From Saprospiraceae bacterium (GTDB taxonomy: Bacteria > Bacteroidota > Bacteroidia > Chitinophagales > Saprospiraceae), in contig JALWRC010000109.1 of assembly GCA_027080725.1 (NCBI GenBank), positions 1 to 33,345 of the forward strand: a DNA stretch of 33,345 nt, given 5' to 3'. Within the stretch, counting starts at the first letter, position 1, and each line of letters opens with the position of its first letter. The position numbers and the translations under genes were made by a program. Below are positions 1,498-26,828 of the stretch, piece after piece. The notes beneath the pieces are model-generated. The model was given only the letters and a program-made list of their open reading frames with translations. It was not told where the DNA came from and did not search any database.

Positions 1498-1539
1498 TGC
1501 CGGCCATTTCATGCCAGATGTCGTTACCCATGATCAGAT

Positions 1540-4038: not shown

Positions 4039-4093
4039 TAAAGCAATATAGAAAGTACTACCTAAATTTTTATTTACTTACTGTTTTTATTGG

Positions 4094-4104
4094 GTATGAA
4101 ATGG
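4094..4104 (+). repeat. GTATGAAATGG 11-mer, copy 2
   Basis: Intergenic copy with the longer form GGTATGAAATGGTT (4093-4106), 40 bp upstream of the 1213-aa cargo gene. Confidence 0.55.
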
Positions 4105-4144
4105 TTGGCAATAGAAAAACTTATGAAAATAAAAAAATATAAAG

Positions 4145-9051: not shown

Positions 9052-10776
9052 TTACCGGCTTATGACTAATTTTTGTATCGTCTCCTGCCCATTCCGGCGG
9101 AGTACGACGTAGTAGAGGCCGGGCACACAATGGCTGCAATCTATCTTCAGCAATGCTCCTATTTTACGAATAGTATACTCCCGGGTTAAGATGCACAGGC
9201 CATCAGAGTGGTAAATGCTGAGGGCTCCATCGGTGCTGGACGCTCCATCGTATTCGATAAAAAAGTGCGCATCTGCCGGATTGGGGAATACTCGCAAGAA
9301 AGGCGGTTCGCTCGCGTTACTTTGGGGCTTCAGACCGGTGGTCTTTTTGGGTATGAATTTGAATTTTCCCGTATTGTAGAAGCAGGTATCGTTATTGCGT
9401 ACATCGGAAGTGTCTTCGTATATCACCTTAATATAGAAGTCGTATCTTCCACCGGTATAAGCAGTATCAAGACGGATTGTAAAATCCGGTTCCCAAATGG
9501 TATCATTGTCAGGTGTGACCCAAGCCGGCACTTCCGTAATAATGCCATGGATACAATTTGGGGCCCACTCAAAAGAAGCAGATACGAAGGCCGTGTCCTC
9601 CGCCCTATTGAATGTGTAATGTGCCTCCACCTTGGGGTTGTACCGGTCGAAATACAGTTTGTAAGTCGTATCACACAGGGTTTTTTCGGCGCCGTAAGGG
9701 GCTGTCCATGTCACCGGGCTGTCACATACGGGTTGGTTATAGCCCCTGCGATTCTCATCGATGTAAGGGGAGTCGTCACAATGGAACACCCATTTTATGC
9801 CGGTATCGCGCTTGGGCAGTAAAGTGAATTCCTTTTCGTAGCGCACGCAGCATCCGGTTCCGGTTTGGGCAAACAAGACACAAGGTGGGTCCACGCAAGA
9901 GCTCTCGATGGTCGTATCTACTCCGTGTATCCCCCAGGTATATTGCTCCTGATGCACTTCATAACAAAGTGTTTCGGGCCGCAATCGGACGGTTTGGATC
10001 GAATCGGCACTAAGGGTAAAACATTTGGTCTGCTCATCACAAATGGCGTCCGGATTTCGGGGGTTGCCGATGAGCCATGTCACACATACCTCGGCCGGAG
10101 ACTCCGGAACGGGCATATTAATACACTGCCAATCTTCGAAATCGGGCATAGGCTCTCCATCAATTGTCCATCTCAGCGGTGCCTGACAAGACCCGGCCAG
10201 ATCGCCAATACACACCTCGACCTCATTGCATAGACACTTTTCTCCTTTCACTTCAAACTCTGGTAGTGGAAGGGGAATCTTAGCCTTGTTACCCTGTCCC
10301 ACACTAATTTCATAACTGCAGACATCCCCACAACATCCGTCCACCCATACGTAATAAGTATGGCAGCTTTCTGTAACTCCGCTTAATGTAAATGTAGAAG
10401 TATTGCAAGCCGCATTACAATCTAAGGGCGGGCCACCGCAGGAAAGTACGATACCGGCTTGGATGCCATTACAGCTTGTTCCGGCAAATTCACAATCCTT
10501 CGGGTTAAATTCAAAGGTAACTTCAATCCTGCTTCCATTGCCCACAAATGCCCACCAATTGGTGTTATGTGAAACTCCTTGGCCAAAACAAAGGGTTGGA
10601 AATGGGCCTGTAGGGTTGGAAATGTCAGGATTTGAACAGGCATATCCATCCAATTCCGACAATCCACACAATACATATGAATTTTCACAATCATCTGCAG
10701 CTGGGGGATTGCAGTTTTGTCCGTATGAAATGGTTGACATTAGGAGTAATGACAAAAGAAGTAAAGTTTTTGACAT
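9052..10776 (-). CDS. Secreted cysteine-rich protein with type A T9SS sorting domain
   Basis: A 574-aa protein with a clear signal peptide (MSKTLLLLSLLLMSTISYGQ). The body is unusually rich in cysteine (for example CCGDVC, CGGPPLDC, CLCNEVEVC), which suggests a disulfide-stabilised extracellular fold. The first part resembles the pre-peptidase-like beta-sandwich modules common in Bacteroidota cargo (NTNWWAFVGNGSRIEVTF, about 72-90). The last 85 residues are a type A T9SS signal: FLRVFPNPA (about 492-500) and GLYYVVL near the end, finishing in QKLVISR. No catalytic motif is recognised, so only secretion is inferred. It lies downstream of the Omp28-like gene on the same strand, with a 250-bp gap holding a REP-like hairpin, so co-transcription is doubtful. 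Confidence 0.85.
   Translation of the reverse strand: MSKTLLLLSLLLMSTISYGQNCNPPAADDCENSYVLCGLSELDGYACSNPDISNPTGPFPTLCFGQGVSHNTNWWAFVGNGSRIEVTFEFNPKDCEFAGTSCNGIQAGIVLSCGGPPLDCNAACNTSTFTLSGVTESCHTYYVWVDGCCGDVCSYEISVGQGNKAKIPLPLPEFEVKGEKCLCNEVEVCIGDLAGSCQAPLRWTIDGEPMPDFEDWQCINMPVPESPAEVCVTWLIGNPRNPDAICDEQTKCFTLSADSIQTVRLRPETLCYEVHQEQYTWGIHGVDTTIESSCVDPPCVLFAQTGTGCCVRYEKEFTLLPKRDTGIKWVFHCDDSPYIDENRRGYNQPVCDSPVTWTAPYGAEKTLCDTTYKLYFDRYNPKVEAHYTFNRAEDTAFVSASFEWAPNCIHGIITEVPAWVTPDNDTIWEPDFTIRLDTAYTGGRYDFYIKVIYEDTSDVRNNDTCFYNTGKFKFIPKKTTGLKPQSNASEPPFLRVFPNPADAHFFIEYDGASSTDGALSIYHSDGLCILTREYTIRKIGALLKIDCSHCVPGLYYVVLRRNGQETIQKLVISR
10723..10733 (+). repeat. GTATGAAATGG 11-mer, copy 3
   Basis: Lies inside the signal-peptide codons of the 574-aa cargo gene, on the strand opposite to the gene (read there as TISYG). 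The flanking bases give GTATGAAATGGTTGACA. Confidence 0.5.
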
Positions 10777-10917
10777 AGCGTATTATTTAGTGAACTTCTT
10801 CAACAATGTATAGATGCGTTGAAAGTCCCAAACGCTGCCTAGGGATTCCGTTCATAGGATAAGTCCATATGATAAATATGGCTAAAACTATTGCCAGAAT
10901 TGAGTTTTACGCTAAAA

Positions 10918-10937
10918 CCCACGGTTAAAACCTTGGG
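10918..10937 (+). repeat. REP-like hairpin (imperfect)
   Basis: CCCACGGTT (10918-10926), a 2-nt loop and AACCTTGGG (10929-10937) form a 9-bp stem with one mismatch. It matches the perfect hairpin at 31206-31225. Such short palindromes are typical of REP sequences mobilised by RAYT/IS200-type transposases, none of which is in the window. Confidence 0.5.
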
Positions 10938-11026
10938 CTATCCTGTTTGAACATCTCGATGCGTAGGAGTGAATGCTTTGGGTGCGCCCCCGTTATTAAC
11001 CTTCAGGCAATGCCCATTTAATCGGT

Positions 11027-12274
11027 TTACTCTTTCATTATTATTTGGGTATGGGTCTGATGGCCGGATTTAAGCCGGAGGATATAGGGCCCCGGGGCTA
11101 AACCGGATAAGTCCAATCGTTCAGAAAAGGTGGCCTTTGTTGGAGGAGACAATTGTCTGAAGAGGCGCAGGCGCCCGGTCATGTCTGATACACTTGCAGT
11201 GAGATGCTTTGTAGTGGGAGCGTGGACCCGGATAGAAGCAACATCCACAACAGGGTTTGGGGTAATGGAGAACGAGGATTTTTGCGCAATCGCTTTTTCT
11301 TCAGTCCCCAATAACTTGCTAAGAAGTGCCTTGGAAGTATTGAGCACCTCTTTGGTGTCTTTGTTTTGCACGAAGGCGATGAGTTCGAGGTGGTCGATAT
11401 CCCAATCTTTTTTGAGATGCAGTTTGAAGGTATTTTTAACACTGGTATGATGTGCCAAATCAACCGATAGTCCTCTTTTGTCCGGCAGAAGCAGGCGCTG
11501 TACGAAGTTCAACTTTTCCTGGTTTTGCCACTTAAAGTCGATGTCTGACTCAGTGAGTACCAAGAAGAGTACCAGATTGGTATCTGCGATGGGGCCGACT
11601 TTTTGGAGGTCTACCGTTACGGCGTAATCCTGGTCTTCTATTTGGGCATCCAGTCGGAGTGTTACTCCGGTCATTACAGAGGCATTTTCTTTGTATTTGC
11701 GTAAATACCCATTGTAAAGAGAGTGAGCCGAATTCCCCCCTACGATTGGATCGTCTCCATCAAAGATGGCAGTCGGAATTCCGCTAATGTTGTAATAGCT
11801 TATTCGAAACTCTCCCTCCGGAGTTGAAAAGTCATCACTGTTGTGATATTCGATTACAGCGGCATGATGTCCATGGGAGATCAGGTCATCCACTCCCCTC
11901 GCCCCTCCGGGACAGGCATAGCACCAAGTGGCAGTGCCCATTTCGACGAGGACTTGGTCTCTGGGGGTGGTGTAAGTGTACACGTATTTTGTGTAGGTGT
12001 TGTCGTCGGTTTTCTCATCCTGCGATAGAAGGGATGAGATGTTTACTTTGTAGAGAGCATTGGGGCGGGATAGGGTGAAGGGCTTAAATGTGGCGGTAGC
12101 TACCATAGAGGGAGGCAGATTGTCAAGTCTTGTGGTGTCTGTAAAGAGCAGCGTTTGATCTTGGTCGTAAACCCGGCAAAGGACATTAAAGCTCTCTGCC
12201 TTTTTTCCATTGTTTCGCACGCGTGCACTAAAGCGCGCCTGATCGTTGGGGCGATAAACGGAAGGGCCGTTCAC
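11027..12274 (-). CDS. Omp28/thioredoxin-like T9SS cargo, C-terminal part of a frameshifted gene
   Basis: A 415-aa frame from a GTG at 12274, lacking any signal peptide. It starts with a CARDB-like beta domain (SVYRPNDQARFSARVRNNG). An Omp28-related, thioredoxin-like domain follows, with the redox motif ATWCYACPGG (about 115-125) and the cis-proline-like GIPTAIFDG (about 167-175). A type A T9SS tail ends the protein (SFSITPNPVVD to LRLKSGHQTHTQIIMKE). A cargo with a T9SS tail needs a Sec signal, and that signal lies in the upstream frame (12271-12825), which ends in a GTGA overlap with this start. Adding one A to the run AAAA (+ strand T run 12282-12285) fuses both frames into a 599-aa protein reading DVKNVEVNGPSVY. 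This is therefore most likely one gene with a one-base deletion, real or a sequencing error. True translational coupling of two genes is the less likely alternative. Confidence 0.8.
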   Translation of the reverse strand: MNGPSVYRPNDQARFSARVRNNGKKAESFNVLCRVYDQDQTLLFTDTTRLDNLPPSMVATATFKPFTLSRPNALYKVNISSLLSQDEKTDDNTYTKYVYTYTTPRDQVLVEMGTATWCYACPGGARGVDDLISHGHHAAVIEYHNSDDFSTPEGEFRISYYNISGIPTAIFDGDDPIVGGNSAHSLYNGYLRKYKENASVMTGVTLRLDAQIEDQDYAVTVDLQKVGPIADTNLVLFLVLTESDIDFKWQNQEKLNFVQRLLLPDKRGLSVDLAHHTSVKNTFKLHLKKDWDIDHLELIAFVQNKDTKEVLNTSKALLSKLLGTEEKAIAQKSSFSITPNPVVDVASIRVHAPTTKHLTASVSDMTGRLRLFRQLSPPTKATFSERLDLSGLAPGPYILRLKSGHQTHTQIIMKE

Positions 12275-12900: not shown

Positions 12901-13067
12901 TTGTGTTACGAGCAGTACCTTTTTTGATTTGTGAAACTGTAATAATCCCGTAGGGATGCCATATTTGTAGCCCTGTACTATAGGTTATATGCTTGAGAAG
13001 TGTTGCATGCAAAAATAGTGACAGAACAATGCATTGGCTCATTTTAGTGCATTTTGTAATACACATA
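12901..13067 (+). repeat. MITE/REP-like intergenic element, copy 1 (internally deleted)
   Basis: The copy reads TTGTGTTACGAG at its left end and TTGTAATACACAT (13054-13066) at its right end; the right end is the exact inverse of the left end of copy 3. It shares GAAACTG, AATAATCCCGTAGGGATG, CTTGAGAAGTGT and ATGCAAAAATAGTGAC with copy 3. Relative to copy 3 it lacks about 80 bp after CCCTGTAC. AATGCA/TGCATT near the right end can form a hairpin. Confidence 0.65.
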
Positions 13068-15370: not shown

Positions 15371-18300
15371 ATGTATTTGTCAACTAATATATATTCCGGA
15401 TTACGATTTGTTTCTTGGGATTGCTTTTATCCATTGGTCAGGGGGATATCAGCGGTTATTTTTCTGTTGTTTTGTTGGACGGCGACGTCTCAGGTATTTG
15501 TCGACGTGAATAAAATAGGCCAGGAGCAAGGCTTGAAGGAACGGATAGTCTATCACGTTATTAGGGATAAAAACGGTTATTTTATCATTGTTCAGACCAA
15601 TGCTATCCAGCGATTTGACGGAAGGGTATTTGAGGACGTCAAAGTAGATGTGATGCGAGAGCAGCGGGTTTTGCCGGAGGAGGTGGACCGGCTGGATTTG
15701 TTGCGGGATGGCACTGTATTATTTACTATAAAGAACTCTGAAAAGTACTTCGTACTCCGGCCGGGTAGCTTGGAAGTTGCACCGGGAAGACATCAAGGGA
15801 AGCCGTTATTGCTCTCCGGAAGGTTGTTTTTTCTCATAGGGCAGTCAAATGGCGGATACAGCTTGACGGAGGTTAATGACGCGAGAGAAGAAGCTCCTTT
15901 ACACGTGCGTTTTACTTTGGATGAGGAAATCACTACCGGCTTTATTACGACGGATGGATTTATACTTCAAACCCAATCAGGGAGGATATATCATATTACA
16001 TCCGACAGTTGCAGGGATACAGAGTTGAAGGGGGCACTGATGGAGCGAAAGGATGGGATTTGTGCTTTTACCCGCAGTGGCATCTATTTATGGTCTTCCG
16101 GTCATTGGAAGTCATTGGGTATTCGGCCACCGGTCAAGGAAGTTCCGGCCATCGTTAAAAAGGACAAGGGAGGAAACATCATCCTATCGTATTCATTGGA
16201 GTCCAGGATCCAGAATTATGTTTTTCTATTGGATACCTTGAACGAGTGGCATAATTTGAGCCGCTTGGTCAAAGTGAGCAATACCTTTACAGATGTCTAT
16301 ACAGATGATGGATGGTTTAGGTATTTTCTCGTCGGATACAATGGCATCCAGGTAGTGACATTGCTTCGCCCGGGGGCTCTGTTTGTATGGCGGGACAGCA
16401 CAACGCAGTTGCAAGAGTTTGGAAATGTCATATCCTGCATCGAGAAAGACTCTACCGGTACGCTTCTACTTGCGAGTGAGGCTAAGGGCTTTTTTGAGTT
16501 TGATGACAACCCTCCTTACTTTTATTTGAGCCCTTATCATCCGAAAGGAGGAAATAGTTTTTACAATGCCACACGATTGCTTTACGATGACAGTACGGAC
16601 AGCTATTACGCCTTGTGTTTCGGGGGAGAAAGCAAGAGTATTCTCTACCGTTTTAATCGTACCTCTGACCTTGCAGAACAAATAGAGATTCCTTACAGGA
16701 TGAATGACATGATTCTTTTTGGGGGCGATAAAATCCTGTTGGGAGGGCATGACAAGTCAAGTCGAAAAGGAGCCCTTATACTCTGCCATTTCAAGACAAA
16801 AAAAATGGAAAGAATAAAGCGTTTGTCTGCCCCTGTCAGGTCGTTGTACGTCGATAAGCAGAGTCATTACTGGGTGGGAAGCTTCAAGGGGCTCTACGTG
16901 CTGGATAGTACATTTGAGGAAATAGCGTTGCTGAATAGATATCGAGGTAAATCCCGGATGATGTTGTATGACCACATCTCAATGGTATATCCCTACCGGA
17001 ACCGGCTGTTATGCGGTAGCCGGGGAGGAGGTATTTACGTCGTGCATCCACTCACATATACCGTAGAGAAAATCATCGACACCCGTCAAGGGCTGAGTGA
17101 TAACATGGTGGCAGCTATGATGAATGATGACCAAGGGCATTGCTGGGTGACGACCTTCAACGGGATCTCGGTTTTGGACACTAATCTGACGGTCATCAAG
17201 AGTATCTATGACTGGGAGGGGCTGCCCAATCGGGAGTTTAATACGAAAGCCATCAAAAAAGACCAAAATGGATACATTTATGCCGGTACACTCAATGGAT
17301 TATTGCGGTTTGACCCTCAAATGATGTTAACTTGGGAAAAGACGCACAAGATCGATATCCGGCGGATCACCGTCTATGATAAGGGGCAAGCTGAGGAGGT
17401 GTCTGTATCAGTACCAATACGCTTGTACAATACTACAGATTCTGTAGTTATCCAGGTTAACACCACGGATTATTACAAAAATCCGGGCATAGAAAAGGAA
17501 ATTAATGTAAGATTCCTTGAGAATGCAAATGGCCTTCGGGTAAACCTGGATGACAGGCGTATAAAGTTGAGCAATTTGCCGGAGGATGATTTTAGTATAA
17601 TGGTTTACCCGGACAAAAATTCGGGGGAAACTCGTTTGGACTTCGAAGTACATCATAACTACACGGCGTATTACTTGTTTTTCGGGAGTTTGTTACTCCT
17701 CATTGCAGCAGTGTATTGGTCCGTGAGTTTGATGTTGAAGCGACGGTTGAATGCACAGAGGCGGCGATTGGAGCAAAAACGTAAAATATCTGAATTGCAA
17801 CTGAATTCTTTACAGGCACAAATGAACCCTCATTTTATGAATAACGCCTTGGGGGCGATACAATACTATATCCATATGATGGATACGGAAAAGGCGGATG
17901 AATATTTGGCCAATTTTGCCCTTCTCATACGGTATATTCTGGACTCATCCAAGTCGAGGTTTATCAAATTATCGGAAGAGATAAGAATGCTGAAGTTGTA
18001 TATCGGTTTGGAAGAAATCCGTTTTGACAAGGGAATAATCATGCGGTTGAGGTATGAAATGGTAAAAAATCTTGACATCCTCATCCCTCCGATGATCGTG
18101 CAGCCCTTTGTCGAAAACGCCATACATCACGGATTGAGGAATATGCATGGAAAGACCGGAAAATTAAATATTTACTTTGAGCAACCGGAAGAGCAGTATA
18201 TTGTTATAACCATCGAGGATAATGGCATCGGCCGGGAAGCTGCCAAGGCCTTCAGGAGAACAGGGCATATCTCCAGGGGGTTAAATAATATTGATCAAAG

Positions 18301-18430
18301 GATAGAAGCATTTAATACATTGGGGGGGGTGGATGTCCGGTACAGCATAAGTGATTTGTTTGAAGGCGAGGAATATAGTGGAACAAGAGTTGTTATACAC
18401 ATTCGAATGAAAACCACTGCATACAATTAA
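15371..18430 (+). CDS. Beta-propeller sensor histidine kinase, LytS/YehU type
   Basis: About 1019 aa from the ATG at 15371; an in-frame TTG at 15347 would add 8 residues. An N-terminal hydrophobic segment (ISAVIFLLFCWTATSQ) is followed by a large periplasmic region with two-component-regulator propeller blades (for example VIRDKNGYFIIVQTNAIQRF, DKQSHYWVGSFKGLYVLD, MNDDQGHCWVTTFNGISVLD, KKDQNGYIYAGTLNGLLRFD) and a Y_Y_Y-like beta domain. Then come one membrane span (YYLFFGSLLLLIAAVYWSVS), a coiled coil and a LytS-type kinase core: NPHFMNN with the phospho-acceptor His at about 821, VQPFVENAIHHGL (N box) and IEDNGIGRE (G box). All key residues are present. Such kinases usually sense sugars or peptides, but the ligand is unknown. 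The response regulator starts 17 bp downstream, forming an operon. Confidence 0.92.
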   Translation: MYLSTNIYSGLRFVSWDCFYPLVRGISAVIFLLFCWTATSQVFVDVNKIGQEQGLKERIVYHVIRDKNGYFIIVQTNAIQRFDGRVFEDVKVDVMREQRVLPEEVDRLDLLRDGTVLFTIKNSEKYFVLRPGSLEVAPGRHQGKPLLLSGRLFFLIGQSNGGYSLTEVNDAREEAPLHVRFTLDEEITTGFITTDGFILQTQSGRIYHITSDSCRDTELKGALMERKDGICAFTRSGIYLWSSGHWKSLGIRPPVKEVPAIVKKDKGGNIILSYSLESRIQNYVFLLDTLNEWHNLSRLVKVSNTFTDVYTDDGWFRYFLVGYNGIQVVTLLRPGALFVWRDSTTQLQEFGNVISCIEKDSTGTLLLASEAKGFFEFDDNPPYFYLSPYHPKGGNSFYNATRLLYDDSTDSYYALCFGGESKSILYRFNRTSDLAEQIEIPYRMNDMILFGGDKILLGGHDKSSRKGALILCHFKTKKMERIKRLSAPVRSLYVDKQSHYWVGSFKGLYVLDSTFEEIALLNRYRGKSRMMLYDHISMVYPYRNRLLCGSRGGGIYVVHPLTYTVEKIIDTRQGLSDNMVAAMMNDDQGHCWVTTFNGISVLDTNLTVIKSIYDWEGLPNREFNTKAIKKDQNGYIYAGTLNGLLRFDPQMMLTWEKTHKIDIRRITVYDKGQAEEVSVSVPIRLYNTTDSVVIQVNTTDYYKNPGIEKEINVRFLENANGLRVNLDDRRIKLSNLPEDDFSIMVYPDKNSGETRLDFEVHHNYTAYYLFFGSLLLLIAAVYWSVSLMLKRRLNAQRRRLEQKRKISELQLNSLQAQMNPHFMNNALGAIQYYIHMMDTEKADEYLANFALLIRYILDSSKSRFIKLSEEIRMLKLYIGLEEIRFDKGIIMRLRYEMVKNLDILIPPMIVQPFVENAIHHGLRNMHGKTGKLNIYFEQPEEQYIVITIEDNGIGREAAKAFRRTGHISRGLNNIDQRIEAFNTLGGVDVRYSISDLFEGEEYSGTRVVIHIRMKTTAYN
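18052..18062 (+). repeat. GTATGAAATGG 11-mer, copy 6
   Basis: Inside the kinase core coding sequence (codons for RYEMVK). The extended form GGTATGAAATGGTAAA is shared with copy 5. Confidence 0.5.
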
Positions 18431-18447
18431 TATCACATCAGGCAACC

Positions 18448-19179
18448 ATGAATTATACTTCGGTAATCATAGATGACGAAGCTAAACTCCGGGAGGTGCT
18501 TAAAATCAAGGTCGACCGGTTTTGCAAGGACCTGACGGTTGTGGCGCAGGCGGATTCGGCGCAAAGTGGATTTGAGGCAATCGTACAGCATGAACCGGAC
18601 ATCGTTTTTCTCGACATCTCAATGCCGGGCGGAACGGGATTTGATATGTTGGATAAGTTTGACATCGTCACGTTTGAGATTATATTTATTACAGGGTACG
18701 ATGAGTATGCACTGGAAGCTTTCCGGGTCAATGCGGTAGATTATATTCTGAAGCCGGTCCGGACAGAAGAACTGGTCATAGCGGTCAACAGAGCGCTTGA
18801 AAGGATAAAAAACAAAAACGCACTTACCGGAGAATATGCGTTCAATCGAATAGATTATCCCCGGAAATCCAAGGTGGCGATTCCCTCTGACAATGAATAT
18901 CACCTGGTCAAAGTGGAGCAAATCATCCTTTGCAAAGGATGGGAAAGGTATTCTAAAGTCAAACTCGTTAACAAAGAGGAGATAATCAGTTCTTATCCAT
19001 TGGGCTTTTTTAGAGCTATGTTGGAAAAGTACGGCTTTATTCAGGTGCACAAATCGTACCTGGTCAACAAAGAGCATGTCGTCCGGTATTTAAAAGAGGG
19101 GACGGTCATTATGTCCGATGGGACGACTGTTCCGGTAGCGCGACGAAGGAGAAATGAGTTTTTGTCTCACTTCGGTTGA
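18448..19179 (+). CDS. LytTR-family response regulator
   Basis: A 243-aa cytoplasmic protein. The receiver domain (about 1-120) has the acidic pair D9/D10, phospho-acceptor D56 (VFLDISMPGG), T82 and K102 (YILKPV), so it should be phosphorylatable. The LytTR DNA-binding domain (about 140-243) shows IILCKGWERYSKVKL and FIQVHKSYLVNKEHV and ends near VPVARRRRNEFL. LytTR domains bind paired 9-bp direct repeats with 12-13 bp spacers. Such pairs occur in this window at 23173-23202 and 26415-26444, upstream of the two fibre-like genes, making these the natural candidate targets. It is the partner of the kinase encoded 17 bp upstream and is convergent with an orphan LytTR gene 134 bp away. Confidence 0.94.
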   Translation: MNYTSVIIDDEAKLREVLKIKVDRFCKDLTVVAQADSAQSGFEAIVQHEPDIVFLDISMPGGTGFDMLDKFDIVTFEIIFITGYDEYALEAFRVNAVDYILKPVRTEELVIAVNRALERIKNKNALTGEYAFNRIDYPRKSKVAIPSDNEYHLVKVEQIILCKGWERYSKVKLVNKEEIISSYPLGFFRAMLEKYGFIQVHKSYLVNKEHVVRYLKEGTVIMSDGTTVPVARRRRNEFLSHFG

Positions 19180-19313
19180 TCTGAATACCCGCTATCCGGT
19201 CTTCCTATCGTCAGTACGGAGTTGGGAGGGTTAATCACCCGGGACCCGGCACTTGTAGAAAGAATCCAAATTCCTATGGTGCATAGAATAGCAAAGGAGG
19301 CAATCGGTCTTCA

Positions 19314-19736
19314 TTACCCTTTAAGACAAATGTCAAAAAGGAGATTTTTGTACCTCCTGGATACGGGCAATTTGACATCATTTTTGACACATACCTGAAA
19401 GCCACTCGTTCGACATATGGCGGTCACATACTTGAGATTGACCATATAACTGGAGTGAATTCTCAGAAATCCACGGTGCATTAAGTGATGCTCGAAATAT
19501 TTGAGCGTTTTGGCGCAAAATATATCGGGCCCCTCCTTTAGTACTACTTTGCAGTAATTACTGTCTGCTGATAGATAAAGAATTTGATCTATGTCGAGTA
19601 GATGGATTGCGCTTTCTATTGGGACAATTAACCGGTCTTGTAGAAATGTACAGAAGGTTTTATTTCTACTTTTCCAGATGTCCGGAGTTGCTATCATCAT
19701 ATTGTTATCTTGTTTCATTTCCGGAGTGCTAATCAT
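19314..19736 (-). CDS. Orphan LytTR DNA-binding protein without receiver domain
   Basis: A 140-aa protein. After about 25 unstructured residues it is almost entirely a LytTR domain: [50 protein letters not shown] and [11 protein letters not shown]. No receiver or membrane segment is present, so phosphorylation cannot control it directly. The ATG at 19736 overlaps the stop of the 1095-aa fibre gene (ATGATTAG, 8-bp overlap), implying co-transcription and likely translational coupling; ATGs at 19718 and about 19700 would remove the overlap. It is inferred to be a feedback or modulating regulator of the fibre operon, competing with or assisting the response regulator at 18448. Its target has not been shown. 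Confidence 0.88.
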
Positions 19737-22700
19737 TATTAAATGCTGTGTTCTCTGTCTTATCCCGGAGAAGCGCCTCCAAAGCCTCTAATCGTGCGGA
19801 GAGGGTTTCGAAATTGGACTTTAAGTTCTCATTGGATTTCCTGAGGCTCTTATTTTCGGCGGAGAGTTCCTGCACGGCTTTGACGAGGGGGACGACGAAC
19901 TCGGCGTAGGCGAGACTGTAGTATTTTACATCGCCGGCCGGCTTGCTCACTCCGCTAAAATCATAGCCTACGCTTTCGGCAGCTTGCTCTACTTCCTGTG
20001 CGATGAAACCGGATTGTTTGATTTTGTTGACATCGTATTTCTCCGGGTAGTCGCTGGAATCGACCGTGCCGATGAGTGCATCCATTTTGTCTTTGTCAAA
20101 GTAATAGGTCACGGGACGCAGGGCATTGATAAACTCCAGTCCGACGACGTCCTCTTGGACGTTGTTTTTGACCCTGCCGTCGGAGGTATTGTGCCAGGTA
20201 GAGTGTCCTCCAATCCATGTGACGGAAGAATTGCCTATCATGACTTTATTGCTCGCTCCCGGCTCGGCGTCATAGCCCAGTCCTGTGGAGTTGTCGTAAG
20301 CAGCGCCATCAGAATTGGCACTATATCCAACAGCTGTACGATAACTCCCCGTGGTGTTGTTATACAGAGCTTGAACCCCGTAGGCGGTGTTGTAATCCCC
20401 CGTGGTATTGTAAAACAGGGCATGAGATCCGTTGGCGGCGTTATAAATCCCTGAAGTATTATAGTTTAGGGCTACATACCCAAAAGCGGTGTTATAGCCT
20501 CCGGTGGTATTAGAATATAGACATTTAAATCCGTTGGCGGTGTTGTCATTCCCCGTGGTGTTGGAGTACAAGGCCTTATACCCGCTTGCAGTGTTCCACC
20601 TTCCCGTGGTGTTGGAATACAGGGCTCGGTAGCCTGTGGCGGTGTTGTCATGCCCCGTAGTGTTGGAATACAGGGCTTTTGAACCGACGGCGGTATTGTT
20701 TGCAGCATGGGAGGGTAATGTTGCCCCAGTACCGTTATTGAATAAAGCCGAGTCCCCTACGGCTACGAGGTTGGAGCGACCAATACAATTTTTAATGGCA
20801 CCTATACCGATAGCCACATTGTTATGCCCCGAGTTTATGTTGTATAAAGCATTTACTCCAACAGCTGTATTACCGTTGCCCGAATTATTATATAAAGCAC
20901 TATTGCCCACAGCAGTATTATTATCCCCGTACATATTAGAGTATAATGCTACACTCCCGATTGCCGTGTTGTATTTTCCTGTAAAATTTAATGCTAAGGC
21001 AATTGATCCCAAAGCGGTGTTATAATAACCTGTAGTATTGTTAACAAGAGAACTTCGTCCTATTGCCGTGTTGTGATCTCCCGTGGTGTTTTTATACAGG
21101 GCATAAAACCCGTTGGCGGTATTGTCAAATCCCGTGGTGTTGGAATAAAGGGCTTTGGAACCCACGGCGGTATTGTATTTGGCATGGAAACTGGCTGTAG
21201 CCCCCACTCCATTATTGTAAAGAGCGGAGCCCCCGATGGCTACTAGATTCGAGCGGTCGGTGTTTTTGTAAAGGGCCTTGGTCCCAATGGCCACATTGGA
21301 AAACCCCGTAGTGTTGGAATACAGGGCTTCAAAACCGTTGGCGGTGTTGTCATCCCCCGTGGTGTTTTCGTACAGTGAGTGTTTCCCGATGGCGGAGTTG
21401 TAATTCCCTGAGGTGTTGCTATACAGTGCCCCATTTCCATTGGCGGTATTGTCATCCCCCGTGGTGTTTTTGTAGAGTGCTTGATATCCGTTGGCGGTGT
21501 TGTCATGCCCTGTGGTGTTGGAATACATTGCTTCATACCCGTTGGCGGTGTTGTCATCCCCAGTGGAGTTGTAAACCAATGCTTTAAATCCGTTTGCGGT
21601 GTTGTGAGATCCCGTGGTGTTAGTAAGCAGTGCCTTAAATCCGACGGCGGTGTTGTCATCCCCCGTGGAGTTGCTAAACAGTGTCAGACTTCCGTTTGCG
21701 GTGTTGTTAACCCCCGAGGTGTTGTGATATAGCGCTTGATATCCGTTGGCGGAGTTGTAATTCCCCGTGGTGTTGGAATGCAGGGCATAAGACCCGATGG
21801 TGGTGTTGTGATTCCCCGTGGTGTTGTGATGCATAGCCTCATTCCCGATGGCGGTATTTGAAAATCCCGTGGTGTTGTTATGCATAGCATAATATCCATT
21901 GGCTGTATTTCTATATCCGTTGGTGTTGCTATACAGTGCCTCAAGCCCGTTGGCGGTGTTTTGATACCCCGTGGTGTTGTTATAGAGTGCCTCAAATCCG
22001 TTGGAGGTATTGTCATACCCCGTGGTGTTTTTGTAGAGTGCATGATATCCGTTGGCGGTGCTCCTGTCTCCAGTTGTGTTATTAAATAGTGCTCTAAACC
22101 CGTTGGCGGTGTTCCTGTCTCCAGTTGTGTTATTAAATAATGCCTCAAATCCGTTGGCGTTGTTGTAATTTCCAGAGGTATTATTATACAATGCTTGATA
22201 TCCGTTTGCGGTGTTGTTAACCCCCGTGATGTTGTGATACAGTGCTTGATATCCGTTGGCGGTGTTCTTATATCCCGTGGTGTTGTTATAAAGAGCTTGA
22301 TATCCGTTGGCGGTGTTATTTTTCCCCGTTGTGTTGTTAAGCAGTGCTCTAAACCCGATGGCGGTGTTGAATTCTCCCGTGGAGTTGTTATACAGTGCAG
22401 AATTCCCGTTGGCGGTATTGTAATTCCCCGTGGTGTTACTAAACAGTGCCTGATGTCCGTTGGCGGTGTTGTAATTCCCCGTGGTGTTCATATTCAGTGC
22501 CTGATATCCGTTGGCGGTGTTCTTATATCCCGTGGTGTTGTTATAAAGAGCTTGATATCCGTTGGCAGTATTCCTATATCCCGAGGTATTGGATTTTAAA
22601 GCCTCAAATCCTATTCCTGTGTTTTTATTGTCCGTAGCATCGTCATTCATCCCCGCATGGATACCTAAAAAAACAGAGGATCCGTCACTGTCTGACTTGC

Positions 22701-23016
22701 CATCGCTCAGGTCATTGAGTTCCTTCACAGTACTAGAATTATCCGTTAGTAGACTCCAATCTTTACCGCTGTAATAATAAAACCCAGAAATTTCATCGGT
22801 CTGATAGATTAATAAGCCCGTAGCGGGAGAGCCTATGGCTTCCTTTTGTGCCTTGGTCATTCGTGGGATGAGCAGCCCTTTGTCCGTGGCGTTGATGTCG
22901 AGTTTGGCGCTGGCATCCGGTGTTGTGGTGCCAATGCCTACGTTTTGGGCTTGGAGGGATACGGAAAATACCACCCATAAAAAAATGTAAATCCGGAGAT
23001 CAAGTAAAGTTGTCAT
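19729..23016 (-). CDS. Giant beta-roll repeat protein with C-terminal S74 chaperone domain
   Basis: A 1095-aa exported protein. The signal peptide ends near SLQAQ (residue 24) and is followed by the [17 protein letters not shown] opening typical of Bacteroidota S74 proteins. Residues 143-901 hold about 44 units of 17 residues, consensus NTTGxxNTANGxxALYx, resembling YadA-head/left-handed beta-roll strands. From about 944 comes the S74 endosialidase-type intramolecular chaperone: SDGRVKNNV, where S74 proteins autocleave between Ser and Asp, then [19 protein letters not shown] and [20 protein letters not shown] coiled coil (about 1040-1085) ends the protein. S74 domains drive trimerisation and are then often cleaved off, so a trimeric surface fibre is inferred. 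There is no T9SS tail, so the export route is unclear. The repeat region is prone to recombination. A LytTR-type site lies 157-186 bp upstream. Confidence 0.9.
20314..22590 (-). repeat. 51-bp in-frame tandem repeat array (about 44 units)
   Basis: Codes for residues 143-901 of the 1095-aa protein. Units are 17 codons (51 bp) and share strings such as CCGTTGGCGGTGTTGT and CCCGTGGTGTTG (+ strand). A 64-bp stretch at 22248-22311 recurs without change at 22503-22566, exactly 255 bp (5 units) away, which indicates recent block duplication or conversion. Two units are interrupted by a 7-residue insertion after NNGxGAT. Confidence 0.92.
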
Positions 23017-23172
23017 GTTTAATAAAGTTTAATGATTTAAGATTATTTGTGGGATACAGTTGCATTATTTTTTGTGATTCTTTGAGCGATAAGCCCATTC
23101 TCACAAAAGAGTTATTATACTTTTTGGAAGCACAAGGTTACGTTGGTTCAATAGAATCATAAAGCTTGAATA

Positions 23173-23202
23173 CACCAACGGTTGATTTAATCAAACTAAC
23201 GG
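23173..23202 (-). promoter_or_regulatory. LytTR-type paired binding site (site A)
   Basis: On the minus strand, ACCGTTAGT (23202-23194) and ACCGTTGGT (23181-23173) are direct repeats with a 12-bp spacer, period 21. Both fit the published LytTR consensus [TA][AC][CA]GTTN[AG][TG] at all nine positions, and the spacing equals the reported 12-13 bp. The site is 157 bp upstream of the 1095-aa fibre start and on the same strand. Confidence 0.72.
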
Positions 23203-23321
23203 TATAATAGTACAGATTATCCGAGTCTTGCATAGACACAATAGGGCTGGAGTTAAGTTAAAAGCCAATTTTGTAAGATATTTCAGATAGGTTTTTGTGC
23301 TTGGATAGCAATGCGATTCAC

Positions 23322-23490
23322 AAGTCCTGTACGAGCGTCAGTGAAGTTCAGGGTTTATAAGAGCACCCAAAGCTGTTTTCATGGTGTTTTTGCTCGACCC
23401 AATATATTAAGTACTTGAGAAGTGTTGTCTGCAAAAAAATAGTTACCAAACAATGCATCGGTTTATTTTAGTGCATGTTGTATTACACAC
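23322..23490 (+). repeat. MITE/REP-like intergenic element, copy 2 (5' truncated)
   Basis: The alignable part starts at AGTCCTGTACGAGCG and runs through CTTGAGAAGTGTTG, CAATGCATC and TTTTAGTGCAT to the terminal GTATTACACAC (23480-23490). Compared with copy 3 it lacks the GTGTATTAC start and the TCCCGTAGGGA palindrome. Confidence 0.6.
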
Positions 23491-23495
23491 CTATG

Positions 23496-25736
23496 TTAGT
23501 CAACCGGATGGAGGCTCACTTTAAGGGTATGCAGCTCGGTAATTAAGGATTCCAACTTCTTTTTTTGACGGGCGCTGTCCTCCATCAAAGCTTTAAGCAT
23601 TGCATTTTGGCTTTGGATGATTTGTTGCTGCTCCTGCACGGCTTTGACGAGGGGGACGACGAATTGTGCATAGGAGAGGGAGTAAAGGTCCCGGTCTCCT
23701 TTGGGCTTGGTAATGCCGCTGAAGTCGTAGCCTGCTTCCCGGGCGGCTTGTTCTACCTCCTGGGCGATGAAGCCGGACATCTTAATCTTTTCGATGTCAT
23801 ATTTCTCTGCATAGTCTGAAGAATCGACCGTGCCCATCAATCTGTCCTCTGTGTCTTTGTCGATGTGATAGGTGACCGGACGCAGCCGGGTGATAAAGTC
23901 CAGTCCTGAGACATCTTCTTTCACATCCGTCTTAATCCTGCCATCCGAATAAATGGCCCAAGGCACCTGTCCTCCTATCCAGGTGACGGAGGAGTTGCCT
24001 ACATGGACGCCGTTCGTGGAGACTGGATTAGCATTGTAACCGATGCCGGTGGAGTTGATGCATCTACTACATGTGCTATGGGCGGAGTGACCAATGGCAG
24101 TGTTGTAAATTCCTATGGTGTTGTTTCCCAGGGCTTGAAATCCAGAGGCGGTGTTATTGTGTCCAGTACTGTTTAGACGAAGAGCTTGATTACCGGTGGC
24201 AGTGTTGTTGTTGCCATTTGTATTTTCATACAAGGTATAACTCCCCAAGGCTACATTTTTCTCCCCTGCAACATTAGAATATAAAGAGTAAAATCCATTG
24301 GCCACATTAAAATTCCCTTTAGTATTGGAAGATAATGAGCGAAAACCGGTGGCAGTATTCTGCGTCCCGGTTTTGTTGGATGTCAGGGATTCATGCCCGA
24401 TCGCTACATTGTTAATACCAGTGGTATTTTTATACAGCGCATCACTCCCAATGGCCACGTTGCGAGCACCGGAAGTGTTGGAAGACAATGCCGCGTATCC
24501 GGTTGCGGTATTATAAGAGCCGGTTTTGTTTACCGCTAAAGCCCGGTATCCATTGGCGGTATTTTTAGAACCTGTGGTATTGTACTGAAGTGCTTCCAGC
24601 CCGCTTGCCGTGTTGGCTCCTCCTGTGGTGTTGGAATAGAGCGCACGGACTCCGGTGGCCGTGTTGGCGTTGCCTGTCGTATTGGAATACAATGCATTAA
24701 ACCCACTTGCCGTATTTTCGTTTCCGATAGCATTGGAGTACATAGCATGATATCCTGTGGCGGTATTGGCTACACCCGTAGTGTTAGTATACAGGGCTTT
24801 GGAGCCCAGTGCGGTGTTAGCCCCGGCTTGATTATAAAATAACGCCGAGTCGCCGACGGCTACGAGATGGCTTTGCGTTGTATTGTTGTACAGTGCCCGG
24901 ATGCCCACGGCGACGTTGGAGGAGCCCGTGGTGTTGCGGGTCATGGCCTGGGCGCCGATAGCCGTATTGAAAAGCCCTGCGGTATTGGAATACAGGGCTT
25001 GAGCCCCGGAGGCGGTATTGGCATAACCGGTGGTGTTGGTCATCATGGCCTGATAGCCTGAAGCGACGTTAAAACTCCCCGTCGTATTGGCATAGCCGGC
25101 TTCATGTCCGATCAGGGTGTTGTTGTTGTCCGATAAATCGTCATGGGCGCCTGCCCCCGTGCCGACAAATACCGAGTTCCCGGTATTGTTGACACCGAGT
25201 CGTCCATTATCCATATTAAAATGCTCCATGCCCTGTGTCGAGAAGCGGATGATGTTTTCATTGGCATTTTTTTCGACCTCTACTTTGGTATCTCCGTCTG
25301 CGTCTGCCAGGATGGAGGCGGTCTCTACCATGCCTGCTTTGTCCGCGTATTTGGCATAAGGTACGGTCAATAATGGGGAGGTGCCGCTTATGCTGTAATC
25401 CGTTCCTCCCTTAGGGTCGGTTTCTACCTTGATATAGTACGGACCGGAGGACCAGTCGATGGCCTTAAAATCTCCTGTTAACGCAGTGCCGGAGCCGATT
25501 TCGAGACTGACCAATCCATTCATGTTGGTTACGGGTTTGGGGTCGTAGGTCTCTTGGTACACGACGTTGCCGTTTGGGTGCAAATGCAAGAGGCTGACCC
25601 GCATCCCCAAATGGGTGTTGGGTACCAATTCATTGTTCGCGGTTCTCACGACGGCTTGATAACTGATGGTCTCAGGTGTTTGTGCAACCCCACTAAACGC
25701 GAAAAGAAGACTGAGAAGAATAAATGTTTTTTTCAT
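23496..25736 (-). CDS. Beta-roll repeat protein with C-terminal S74 chaperone domain (746 aa)
   Basis: Shorter paralogue of the 1095-aa protein. It has a signal peptide (MKKTFILLSLLFAFSGVAQ), then a globular N-domain (ISYQAVVRTANNELVPN, YIKVETDPKGGTDYSISG, LTVPYAKYADKA; about 24-135) that occurs in many Bacteroidota exported proteins and differs from the start of the long paralogue. About 20 repeats of 17 residues follow (217-555; N-T-T-G and N-T-A-S/T-G patterns). The S74 chaperone domain (from SDGRIKTDV, about 590) with [19 protein letters not shown] and [16 protein letters not shown], and a short coiled coil, end the protein. It is inferred to be a trimeric fibre processed by its own S74 domain. 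The upstream gene for a small T9SS cargo ends 19 bp before its ATG, so the two form an operon. Confidence 0.9.
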   Translation of the reverse strand: MKKTFILLSLLFAFSGVAQTPETISYQAVVRTANNELVPNTHLGMRVSLLHLHPNGNVVYQETYDPKPVTNMNGLVSLEIGSGTALTGDFKAIDWSSGPYYIKVETDPKGGTDYSISGTSPLLTVPYAKYADKAGMVETASILADADGDTKVEVEKNANENIIRFSTQGMEHFNMDNGRLGVNNTGNSVFVGTGAGAHDDLSDNNNTLIGHEAGYANTTGSFNVASGYQAMMTNTTGYANTASGAQALYSNTAGLFNTAIGAQAMTRNTTGSSNVAVGIRALYNNTTQSHLVAVGDSALFYNQAGANTALGSKALYTNTTGVANTATGYHAMYSNAIGNENTASGFNALYSNTTGNANTATGVRALYSNTTGGANTASGLEALQYNTTGSKNTANGYRALAVNKTGSYNTATGYAALSSNTSGARNVAIGSDALYKNTTGINNVAIGHESLTSNKTGTQNTATGFRSLSSNTKGNFNVANGFYSLYSNVAGEKNVALGSYTLYENTNGNNNTATGNQALRLNSTGHNNTASGFQALGNNTIGIYNTAIGHSAHSTCSRCINSTGIGYNANPVSTNGVHVGNSSVTWIGGQVPWAIYSDGRIKTDVKEDVSGLDFITRLRPVTYHIDKDTEDRLMGTVDSSDYAEKYDIEKIKMSGFIAQEVEQAAREAGYDFSGITKPKGDRDLYSLSYAQFVVPLVKAVQEQQQIIQSQNAMLKALMEDSARQKKKLESLITELHTLKVSLHPVD
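24072..25088 (-). repeat. 51-bp in-frame tandem repeat array (about 20 units)
   Basis: Codes for residues 217-555 of the 746-aa protein. Units are more diverged in DNA than those of the 1095-aa gene, with A/G rather than N before the invariant G (for example NTASG, NTATG), so it is the older or less homogenised array. One unit ([16 protein letters not shown]) matches the special SNLVAxGxSAL module of the longer protein. Confidence 0.88.
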
Positions 25737-25755
25737 GGCTGCAAATGTTTTAATT

Positions 25756-26229
25756 TCAATGTTTGATGATTTTGAAGCTTTGAAGCGTATTGAAATGGTT
25801 GTCTTTTATCTGTAACAGGTACATGCCGGAAGAAAAGTGCCCCATCGGTATGTGGGTGGTATGGTCCTGTATTTTAGCTTGTAAAAGTGGGCGCCCGTTA
25901 ATATCGCACAGTGTGTATTGGAGGGATGACAAGGTGTGTTGGTTGATACTTAGTTGTAAATAAGTCTGTACCGGATTGGGTTGGACTTTACAGGTTAGAC
26001 GGATATTGGACGCCGTCGTCCCCAAGATGTAGATTTCGATGGGCTGCTGTACTCCTTGGACGATATTGTGGCCGGGGGCATTTTGAAAAGAGTAAAATAC
26101 CTGTCCGATGGAGTAACTGACATGTCCACCGGAGCCTGTGGCTTCCCCATATCCGGCAACAGGGCCTTGTTGGGCTTGAAGCACCGATGTAATACATAAT
26201 AAAATGCTGAGGAGTACAATTTTTTTCAT
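25756..26229 (-). CDS. Small secreted protein with type A T9SS sorting domain
   Basis: 157 aa from the ATG at 26229. The frame is open back to 26346, but the extra 39 residues have no features, and starting at 26229 places a signal peptide first (MKKIVLLSILLCITSVLQAQ). The middle (about 20-70: GPVAGYGEATGSGGHVSYSIGQVFY, VQGVQQPIEI) is the short domain found in many Bacteroidota mini-cargo proteins. The end is a type A T9SS signal (VQPNPVQTYLQLSI, GMYLLQI, FKIIKH). It lies 19 bp upstream of the 746-aa fibre gene, so they are co-transcribed. It is inferred to be a small surface partner for the fibre, since the fibre itself has no T9SS tail. The paired LytTR-type site B is 186 bp upstream. Confidence 0.82.
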   Translation of the reverse strand: MKKIVLLSILLCITSVLQAQQGPVAGYGEATGSGGHVSYSIGQVFYSFQNAPGHNIVQGVQQPIEIYILGTTASNIRLTCKVQPNPVQTYLQLSINQHTLSSLQYTLCDINGRPLLQAKIQDHTTHIPMGHFSSGMYLLQIKDNHFNTLQSFKIIKH

Positions 26230-26414
26230 ACATAGGTTATTTTGTATAAAATGGTAATCTGTCTTCATATGGATTGCTCTATGCTGCTTAAGTAAAAGCA
26301 TTAGTAACGGCTTGAAAATGACCTTTGATTTATTCCATTCATTCAACTAATAGGTGATGCGTGTTTCTATGCACAATATTATGACTGATGTTTGTAAAAA
26401 ACAAGGACAAACAC

Positions 26415-26444
26415 ACCATCGGTCAATCTCAACCTACCAATGGT
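26415..26444 (-). promoter_or_regulatory. LytTR-type paired binding site (site B, degenerate)
   Basis: On the minus strand, ACCATTGGT (26444-26436) and ACCGATGGT (26423-26415) have a 12-bp spacer and a 21-bp period, identical in spacing to site A. Each has one mismatch to the LytTR consensus core GTT. The right half plus flank (ACCGATGGTGTGTT) matches site A (ACCGTTGGTGTATT) at 12 of 14 positions. It lies 186 bp upstream of the small cargo/746-aa fibre operon. Confidence 0.5.
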
Positions 26445-26553: not shown

Positions 26554-26790
26554 ATGTGTATTACAAGTTGTACTGTTTTGATTTGAGAAACTGAAATAAT
26601 CCCGTAGGGATGTCCTCATTGTAGTCCTGTACGAGCGATAGCGAAGTGCAGGGCTTTATAATATCACCTAACGCCGTTTTGGCGAAATTTTTACCCGGTC
26701 CAATAGGCTAAATGCTTGAGAAGTGTGGTATGCAAAAATGGTGACAAAAACGATGCTTTTGTTCATTTTTGTGCAATTAGTATTACACAC
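26554..26790 (+). repeat. MITE/REP-like intergenic element, copy 3 (longest)
   Basis: The left end is ATGTGTATTACAA (26554-26566) and the right end GTATTACACAC (26780-26790), which are imperfect terminal inverted repeats. The inside contains ATCCCGTAGGGAT (palindrome), CCTGTACGAGCGATAGCG with GTGCAGG (stem), and CTTGAGAAGTGT. It encodes no protein. Confidence 0.68.
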
Positions 26791-26828
26791 CAATCTGCGC
26801 CTGGCCGGGGCATATCCCATCTATTGCC

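Follow-up and report, generated by a model that had tools for sequence, protein, structure and literature searches.

A candidate LytTR regulon of two S74 fibre operons in a Saprospiraceae bacterium

LytTR regulatory systems (LRS) are characterized, in the available part of the published account, by 9-bp repeats with a 12-bp spacer positioned beside the promoter and by autoregulation of the LytTR operon, and the LRS-like operons of Bacteroides possess 11-bp repeats with an 11-bp spacer and TATCTTTG promoters (PMC6193735). These Bacteroides operons and the HdrRM/BrsRM systems of Streptococcus mutans resemble the locus described here in having direct repeats just upstream of the promoter (PMC6193735). 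The S74-type mosaic adhesive trimer (MAT) fibres of Bdellovibrio bacteriovorus are secreted proteins of about 1000 amino acids that end in an S74 domain with an SDxxxK motif and bind prey surface glycans; the available part of that account makes no mention of LytTR control (PMC10769870). Our literature searches found no description of a LytTR-controlled S74 fibre regulon and no account of how cellular S74 fibres are controlled; LytTR regulation itself is already known, and by these searches the new part is S74 fibres as its targets.

The DNA analysed here, referred to as the window, is a stretch of 33,345 nucleotides from a Saprospiraceae bacterium that contains the following features:

15371..18430, + strand: LytS-type sensor histidine kinase with Reg_prop propeller, membrane segment, His_kinase and HATPase_c (Pfam, translation)
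18448..19179, + strand: response regulator (RR) with receiver and LytTR DNA-binding domain (Pfam)
19314..19736, − strand: orphan LytTR protein without a receiver (Pfam)
19729..23016, − strand: fibre 1, with 17-aa NTAxGxxALxxNTTGxx repeats (51-bp DNA period), Peptidase_S74 with SDGRVK and a C-terminal coil (Pfam, repeat and motif analysis)
23133..23140, − strand: putative −7 box TAACCTTG, matching TAnnTTTG with one mismatch, at 41 bp from the proximal half-site's CC
23174..23203, − strand: LytTR-type direct repeat ACCGTTAGT-N12-ACCGTTGGT before fibre 1, its proximal CC 165 bp ahead of fibre 1
23496..25736, − strand: fibre 2, with 17-aa repeats, beta-solenoid, Peptidase_S74 with SDGRIK and a Bdello_MAT_N-like N-terminus (Pfam, predicted structure)
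25756..26346, likely start about 26229, − strand: small secreted protein whose T9SS sorting tail is of type A; its gene leads the fibre-2 operon (Pfam)
26374..26381, − strand: putative −7 box TAATATTG, also with one mismatch and at 41 bp from the proximal half-site's CC
26415..26444, − strand: LytTR-type direct repeat ACCATTGGT-N12-ACCGATGGT before the fibre-2 operon (pattern search)

The Pfam domains fit the propeller LytS kinase and LytTR regulator that an earlier note had placed at 15371–19179, and the kinase, with His_kinase and HATPase domains, adjoins the receiver-LytTR regulator as in a two-component system. Other LytS/LytTR systems with Reg_prop sensors share these kinase and RR domains; what sets the window's pair apart is its link to S74 fibres and their promoters. 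The orphan LytTR frame meets the end of the fibre-1 gene and shares 8 nt with it, as the note had described. In contrast to the LRS, as far as the available part of their account goes (PMC6193735), the window orphan has no paired inhibitory membrane protein, its neighbours being the secreted fibre gene and the opposite-strand RR; a LytS and an RR lie nearby, and the targets are giant S74 fibres. A PDB sequence search with the orphan gave 3d6w as the sole match. The fibres share with the Bdellovibrio MAT fibres the C-terminal S74 domain with SDxxxK, and the N-terminus of fibre 2 matches Bdello_MAT_N below threshold (E 1.8e-8, 34.4 bits, curated cut-off 60), with no match to this family in fibre 1. 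They differ from the MAT fibres, as these appear in the available part of their account (PMC10769870), in coming from Bacteroidota, in having a T9SS-sorted partner and in their long, regular solenoid of 17-aa repeats.

One pair of 9-bp direct repeats with a period of exactly 21 lies ahead of each fibre operon. The earlier note had not found these sites before the other genes it inspected and had proposed a genome scan; across 3.8 Mb (3,803,690 bases) the exact form, ACCRWTRGT-N12-ACCRWTRGT, occurs as two perfect pairs, one per fibre operon and nowhere else. With one mismatch there is one further place, on contig C17, where an open frame spanning the whole 3-kb locus encloses it. The window itself has 9 matches at up to three mismatches against 0.87 expected, overlapping and opposite-strand readings being counted. 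The genome has 14 matches at up to two mismatches against 17 for the reversed control pattern, so the window's letters mark no larger regulon and a wider one carrying them is ruled out; a looser ACCNNTNGT pair gave 3 matches and 3 control matches. The same pattern search found no repeat site at the window's LytS/RR operon.

Two features of LytTR promoters are present in the window, paired 9-bp repeats about 21 bp apart and a fixed distance to a −7-like box, the latter not counted blind. From the sequence we consider it likely that both fibre operons belong to one small LytTR regulon. A LytTR protein would bind a pair of 9-bp half-sites that share one helical face immediately upstream of the promoter, and would switch transcription on; the control is probably activating in sign. 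The LytS propeller may sense something outside the cytoplasm and phosphorylate the RR, and the RR, the orphan LytTR or both could bind the sites. Of the two, the orphan is slightly favoured as direct binder, since its own operon has the sites and the LytS/RR operon lacks them; made from the fibre-1 operon, it would provide positive feedback. The fibres would be exported, trimerise, undergo autoproteolytic trimming by S74 and serve as adhesins. The arrangement points to a mode of control for adhesive fibres of this kind, and a promoter layout that can be read from sequence makes this control testable. It also provides a rule for finding LytTR targets in Bacteroidota, namely 20–21-bp repeats about 40 bp before a −7 box.

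Comparable arrangements occur in relatives. In G224, which belongs to another genus, LytS, an orphan LytTR, fibre 1, a small T9SS protein and fibre 2 lie in line, and a triple repeat, CCAATTTCACA/CCATTCTCACA/CCATTCTCACA with a 21-bp period, occurs at two places in 4.5 Mb, before the orphan–fibre 1 unit and before the small protein–fibre 2 unit, with none in three congeners and 0 control matches. In the same-genus G041, LytS and RR directly precede fibre 1, whose initial part runs to the end of the contig; the box there, TAGCTTTG, is perfect, and repeats with a 20-bp period lie at −42 and −62. A homologue of the small T9SS protein lies before a fibre gene in G041 (37%) and a weak one in G224 (22%); the orphan LytTR is 43% identical to that of G224 and 46% to one in G166 that does not adjoin a fibre gene, and its best match in G041, which has no close orphan, is 39%. 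In G371, TTCACTCA-N13-TTCACTCA (21-bp period) occurs at up to one mismatch at two places, both ahead of class-a fibre genes, one of which (L197) lies in a 20-kb region devoid of LytTR genes; at two mismatches there are three more places in G371 (one for the control), and G091 has a single 1-mismatch place. In G166 the RR, LytS and fibre genes are in line and half-sites are common to the RR and fibre promoters; elsewhere the G166 motif has a perfect match in G077, within a long frame that is unrelated, and a 1-mismatch match on G166 contig C288, against two matches for the reversed control. The window's own genome holds a third S74 fibre, of class a, on contig C67 (L014), where RR, LytS and fibre again stand in line and the half-site ACCGTTWACTCATT is common to the RR–LytS operon and the fibre. 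Like the window, C67 combines an RR, a LytS and a class-a fibre, but it has no adjoining orphan and other half-site letters. At up to two mismatches its motif gave 8 matches against 11 for the control; by eye, one 1-mismatch match falls within apparent ribosomal-protein genes.

The half-site letters change from locus to locus, and the repeat period (20–21) and box distance are kept, which is the pattern expected of LytTR activators. The regulon proposed in the earlier note thus stands as a promoter layout common to both fibre operons and seen in other genera, but its description as self-contained is doubtful, because the third fibre has its own LytS/LytTR pair and the repeat is present at L197 although the 20-kb region there lacks a LytTR gene. 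Gene order likewise recurs, in G224 and, at its start, in G041, with RR, LytS and fibre in line in G166 and C67, but most fibre genes examined in relatives have no LytTR neighbour. This is what the note had named as counting against its proposal, and our claim is therefore limited to a subset of fibre loci. Among class-a genes outside the window's genome with 5 kb on both sides, a LytTR domain lies within 5 kb of 4/23, compared with 2/47 other S74 genes (p=0.09); in any context the counts are 8/51 and 3/78 (p=0.025), both near copies L183/L184 included. The S74 model for relatives was built with seeds at known places, and the class-a survey covered 40 regions, class-a genes being present in 82 genomes. 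A general linkage of S74 and LytTR genes was not seen for ordinary S74 genes (the 2/47), and for class a it is modest. Control regions of the same genomes held a LytTR domain in 1 of 20 (L137), which also held a class-a fibre gene and was reassigned to class a. When orphan LytTR regions were picked by short frame alone, 2 of 16 (L169, L175) had an S74 gene, so orphans are not generally fibre-linked.

As a tentative extension, these loci could represent a switch that is dedicated to fibres and recurs among Saprospirales-type bacteria, where LytS would sense a surface glycan or contact, the RR would prime the fibre promoters and the fibre-1-encoded orphan would lock them on, giving an all-or-none coating of S74 adhesive fibres; if regulators and half-site letters change together, each locus would be insulated from its paralogues.

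The strongest alternative, though a somewhat unlikely one, is that the fibres are LytTR-controlled by another LytTR protein acting in trans, with the neighbouring LytS/RR pair a bystander or directed at another target. The genome's seven LytTR domains, the repeat at L197 and the lack of sites at the window's LytS/RR operon would all allow this, but C67 and G166 have RR, LytS and fibre in line with shared half-sites, and the window RR has a grouping, though not a firm one, with RRs linked to S74: the LytTR tree joins it to four rows, three of them S74-linked, with support of 91/91, below the star level, and a long end branch. The tree is poorly resolved (8/53 inner branches starred), and the S74-linked label shows no significant clustering in it (14 changes, with 49 of 500 shuffles as low).

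That a LytTR protein binds the sites and represses the fibres is quite unlikely: the sign of regulation is not readable from sequence alone, but a proximal half-site at a fixed distance upstream of a −7-like box is the LytTR activator layout, according to the available part of PMC6193735. 

In favour of the LytTR regulon, a TAnnTTTG-like box lies 39–41 or 60–62 bp from the CC at 10 of 62 positions, compared with 2 of 500 other positions, in a count that was not blind: some boxes had already been noticed when the list was fixed, several half-sites were chosen by eye and some promoters are near copies. A composite rule (half-sites 21 apart and a box at 39–41), partly learnt from the loci on which it was tested, was matched by 4/10 LytTR-linked S74 genes, or 3/9 without the window, by 0/86 unlinked S74 genes and by 3/965 other genes; shifted controls gave 0–1/10 and 1–3/965. 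Left out beforehand were upstream stretches shorter than 100 bp, the near copy L184, and the remaining genes of linked loci. Among the four linked matches L213, where G169 has a class-a fibre close to an orphan LytTR, appears fortuitous, and L197, which has the repeat and was counted as unlinked, does not fit the rule. A scan of periods at 9/12 matches found 21 in six of the ten linked fibre promoters, with 0–3 for other periods, which supports the LytTR layout weakly; some pairs are not LytTR-like, and the other genes also peak at 21 at 10/12, partly through the codon period.

We regard it as very unlikely that the two site pairs are functionless, arising by chance or as remnants of a duplicated upstream region. 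A dispersed intergenic repeat is common to both fibre upstream regions and looser site versions are no commoner than the reversed control, but copies of that dispersed repeat lack the sites, and other genera combine different letters with a similar period, distance and target genes.

The S, D and K of SDxxxK are invariant in all seven rows of the S74 alignment. A PDB sequence search with fibre 1 gave no match, and the single-chain model of fibre 2 is a beta-solenoid, with block pLDDT of 82–95 over residues 221–530 and under 50 in the S74 region (573–704). Structural comparison placed the phage Sf6 tailspike (4urr_B; Z 15.3, 2.9 Å, 234 residues) at the top, tied within 1 with other rows that include beta-helix enzymes; with Foldseek alone TM-scores were low. 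Phage tail spikes commonly carry S74 domains, which together with this tied Sf6 match would favour prophage tail fibres over cell-surface adhesins, but that reading is hardly credible, given that a Pfam scan of 22 window proteins (five without any match) found no phage family except S74, that a T9SS-sorted protein is encoded in the same operon, and that S74 genes are present in 66 of 100 genomes of the family.

The fibre operons lie on contig C109 of a genome of 3.80 Mb in 110 contigs, where the window contains the following genes:

15371-18430, + strand: LytS, a kinase with Reg_prop, His_kinase and HATPase domains
18448-19179, + strand: RR, a response regulator with receiver and LytTR domains
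25756-26346, - strand: small T9SS-sorted protein (likely start about 26229), followed by fibre 2
23496-25736, - strand: fibre 2
19729-23016, - strand: fibre 1, followed by the orphan LytTR gene
19314-19736, - strand: orphan LytTR, whose frame overlaps the end of fibre 1 by 8 nt

The paired 9-bp direct repeats reported in the earlier note upstream of both fibre operons were confirmed on the - strand at 23203-23174 and 26444-26415, with a period of 21 bp. Across the whole genome, ACCRWTRGT-N12-ACCRWTRGT is matched perfectly only at these two places; allowing up to 2 mismatches gives 14 hits vs 17 for the reversed control, so these letters point to the two fibre operons and to no larger regulon. 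A match with 1 mismatch on contig C17 falls within a long open frame. We conclude that the fibre operons are probable LytTR targets. A dispersed intergenic repeat, in pieces of 76-174 bp with 75-84% identity, occurs at 12902-13065, 23323-23494 and 26557-26794; two of the copies are found ahead of the fibre operons, with no LytTR sites inside them.

In 11 promoters, with the first C of the proximal half-site as the reference point (for L197, CTTTC), a TAnnTTTG-like box with at most 1 mismatch occurs at 39-41 or 60-62 bp in 10/62 positions vs 2/500 elsewhere, a count that is not blind, as several half-sites were chosen by eye, some boxes had been noticed by eye before the list was settled, and some promoters are near copies. 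The box lies at 39-41 in eight promoters and one 21-bp step further, at 61-62, in two (both of locus L183); the RR promoter of L212 has none. TAnnTTTG is given as the flavobacterial sigma-A -7 consensus in PMC9723704. Outside the count, fibre 1 of G041, from the same genus, has a box without mismatch, TAGCTTTG, and repeats of 20-bp period at -42 and -62. A fixed composite rule, half-sites 21 apart with the box at 39-41, picks out 4/10 LytTR-linked S74 genes (window included), 0/86 unlinked and 3/965 other genes, the rule having been learnt in part on these loci; the match in L213 looks like chance. The layout matches, in repeat length, spacer and promoter proximity, the LytTR activators described in PMC6193735, with 9-bp repeats, a 12-bp spacer, an adjoining promoter and, in Bacteroides, TATCTTTG promoters. 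Regulation of the fibre operons is most likely activating; this sign, a ligand, feedback by the orphan and a trimeric fibre are what we infer for the system.

Conservation of gene order, suggested earlier as a check, was found as a recurring order across linked loci of several genomes. The G224 locus L187 (contig C7) reads LytS, orphan LytTR (43% to that of the window), fibre 1 (48%), small T9SS protein, fibre 2, and the near copies L183 (G166, C159) and L184 (G224, C79, a contig that begins within RR) read RR, LytS, fibre, small T9SS protein, fibre. RR, LytS and fibre follow one another in L212 (G371, C4) and L014 (contig C67 of the window's genome), and three fibre-like genes precede an orphan LytTR in L196 (G012, C56). 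In G041, LytS and RR precede fibre 1 (68%), of which only the first part is present before contig C197 ends (L166), and C244 holds a small protein and a fibre; no close orphan LytTR was found in this genome, the best being 39%.

Sites were found in the relatives too. A triple 21-bp repeat occurs at two places in the 4.5 Mb of G224, one ahead of the orphan and fibre 1, the other ahead of the small protein and fibre 2, with none in three congeners and none for the reversed control. The 53% complete G371 has TTCACTCA-N13-TTCACTCA (up to 1 mismatch) at two places, before the fibres of L212 and L197, the very promoters from which the pattern was derived; 2 mismatches add three more places vs 1 in the control. 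The L212 fibre adjoins LytS/RR, and the 20-kb region of L197 has no LytTR domain. A half-site is common to RR and fibre promoters in two further loci: AACCATTCACTAA in G166, a motif with additional matches, and ACCGTTWACTCATT on C67 of the window's genome, for which the longer pattern gives 8 matches vs 11 for the control at up to 2 mismatches. On C67 the third S74 fibre of this genome (1383 aa) is flanked by two LytS/LytTR pairs, one on the upstream and one on the downstream side (locus L014, 2536-15378). By eye, similar stretches with a start such as ATACCAA(A/T)TTAACT are seen ahead of LytTR genes of genus g77 (L187, L183, L158), in L158 together with an inverted copy, AGTTAATTTGGTAT, in a MITE-like arrangement.

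In the window the orphan appears a somewhat better candidate binder than RR, because the sites stand before the operon that encodes it and are absent from that of LytS and RR; RR may possibly bind them, since half-sites are common to RR and fibre promoters in sister loci. Most forks of the LytTR-domain tree are unresolved. The window RR, on a long end branch, grouped with 4 rows, 3 of them S74-linked (support 91/91, under the tool's star level), and the rows nearest to the orphan by path are those of G166 and G224; S74 linkage was not significantly clustered in this tree (49/500 shuffles as low).

S74 genes are present in 66/100 family genomes, and class a, the class of the window's fibres, with a longer S74 domain (alignment A1), in 82/398 genomes at E<=1e-20. 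Among sampled regions, LytTR domains occurred in 4/60 around S74 hits, 1/20 controls (L137, also with a class-a fibre) and 7/40 of the highest-ranked class-a regions. The fibre-LytTR association expected in relatives holds for a minority of class-a genes, most being unlinked: with the window genome excluded and 5 kb of context on both sides, a LytTR domain lies within 5 kb of 4/23 class-a vs 2/47 other S74 genes (Fisher p=0.09), and including the window genome of 7/26 vs 2/47 (p=0.008). Any context gives 8/51 vs 3/78 (p=0.025; window genome excluded, near copies L183/L184 both counted). On these counts linkage is limited to a minority of genes and is probably commoner in class a. An orphan LytTR also adjoins an other-class S74 fibre on the same strand, operon-like, in L169 (G140, 1160-6434) and L089 (G004, 9404-11398).

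Both window fibres are made up of 17-aa NTAxGxxAL repeats (51-bp repeats in fibre 1 DNA) and end in a C-terminal Peptidase_S74 domain with the SDxxxK motif. The components are known, S74 MAT fibres in Bdellovibrio from PMC10769870 and LytTR repeats from PMC6193735; their combination appears new, as far as the open-licence PMC literature goes, where no description of LytTR control of S74 fibres was found. Fibre 2 is predicted (12-row alignment) as a single-chain beta-solenoid, with block pLDDT of 82-95 over residues 221-530, mean pLDDT 71.6, pTM 0.52 and the S74 region below 50; its top VIA-align match, level with those to other beta-helix proteins, is Sf6 tailspike 4urr_B (Z 15.3, 2.9 A, 234 residues). 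The fibre 2 N-termini of the window and of G224 resemble, below cut-off, Bdello_MAT_N, a domain found at the N-terminus of MAT fibres in Bdellovibrio.
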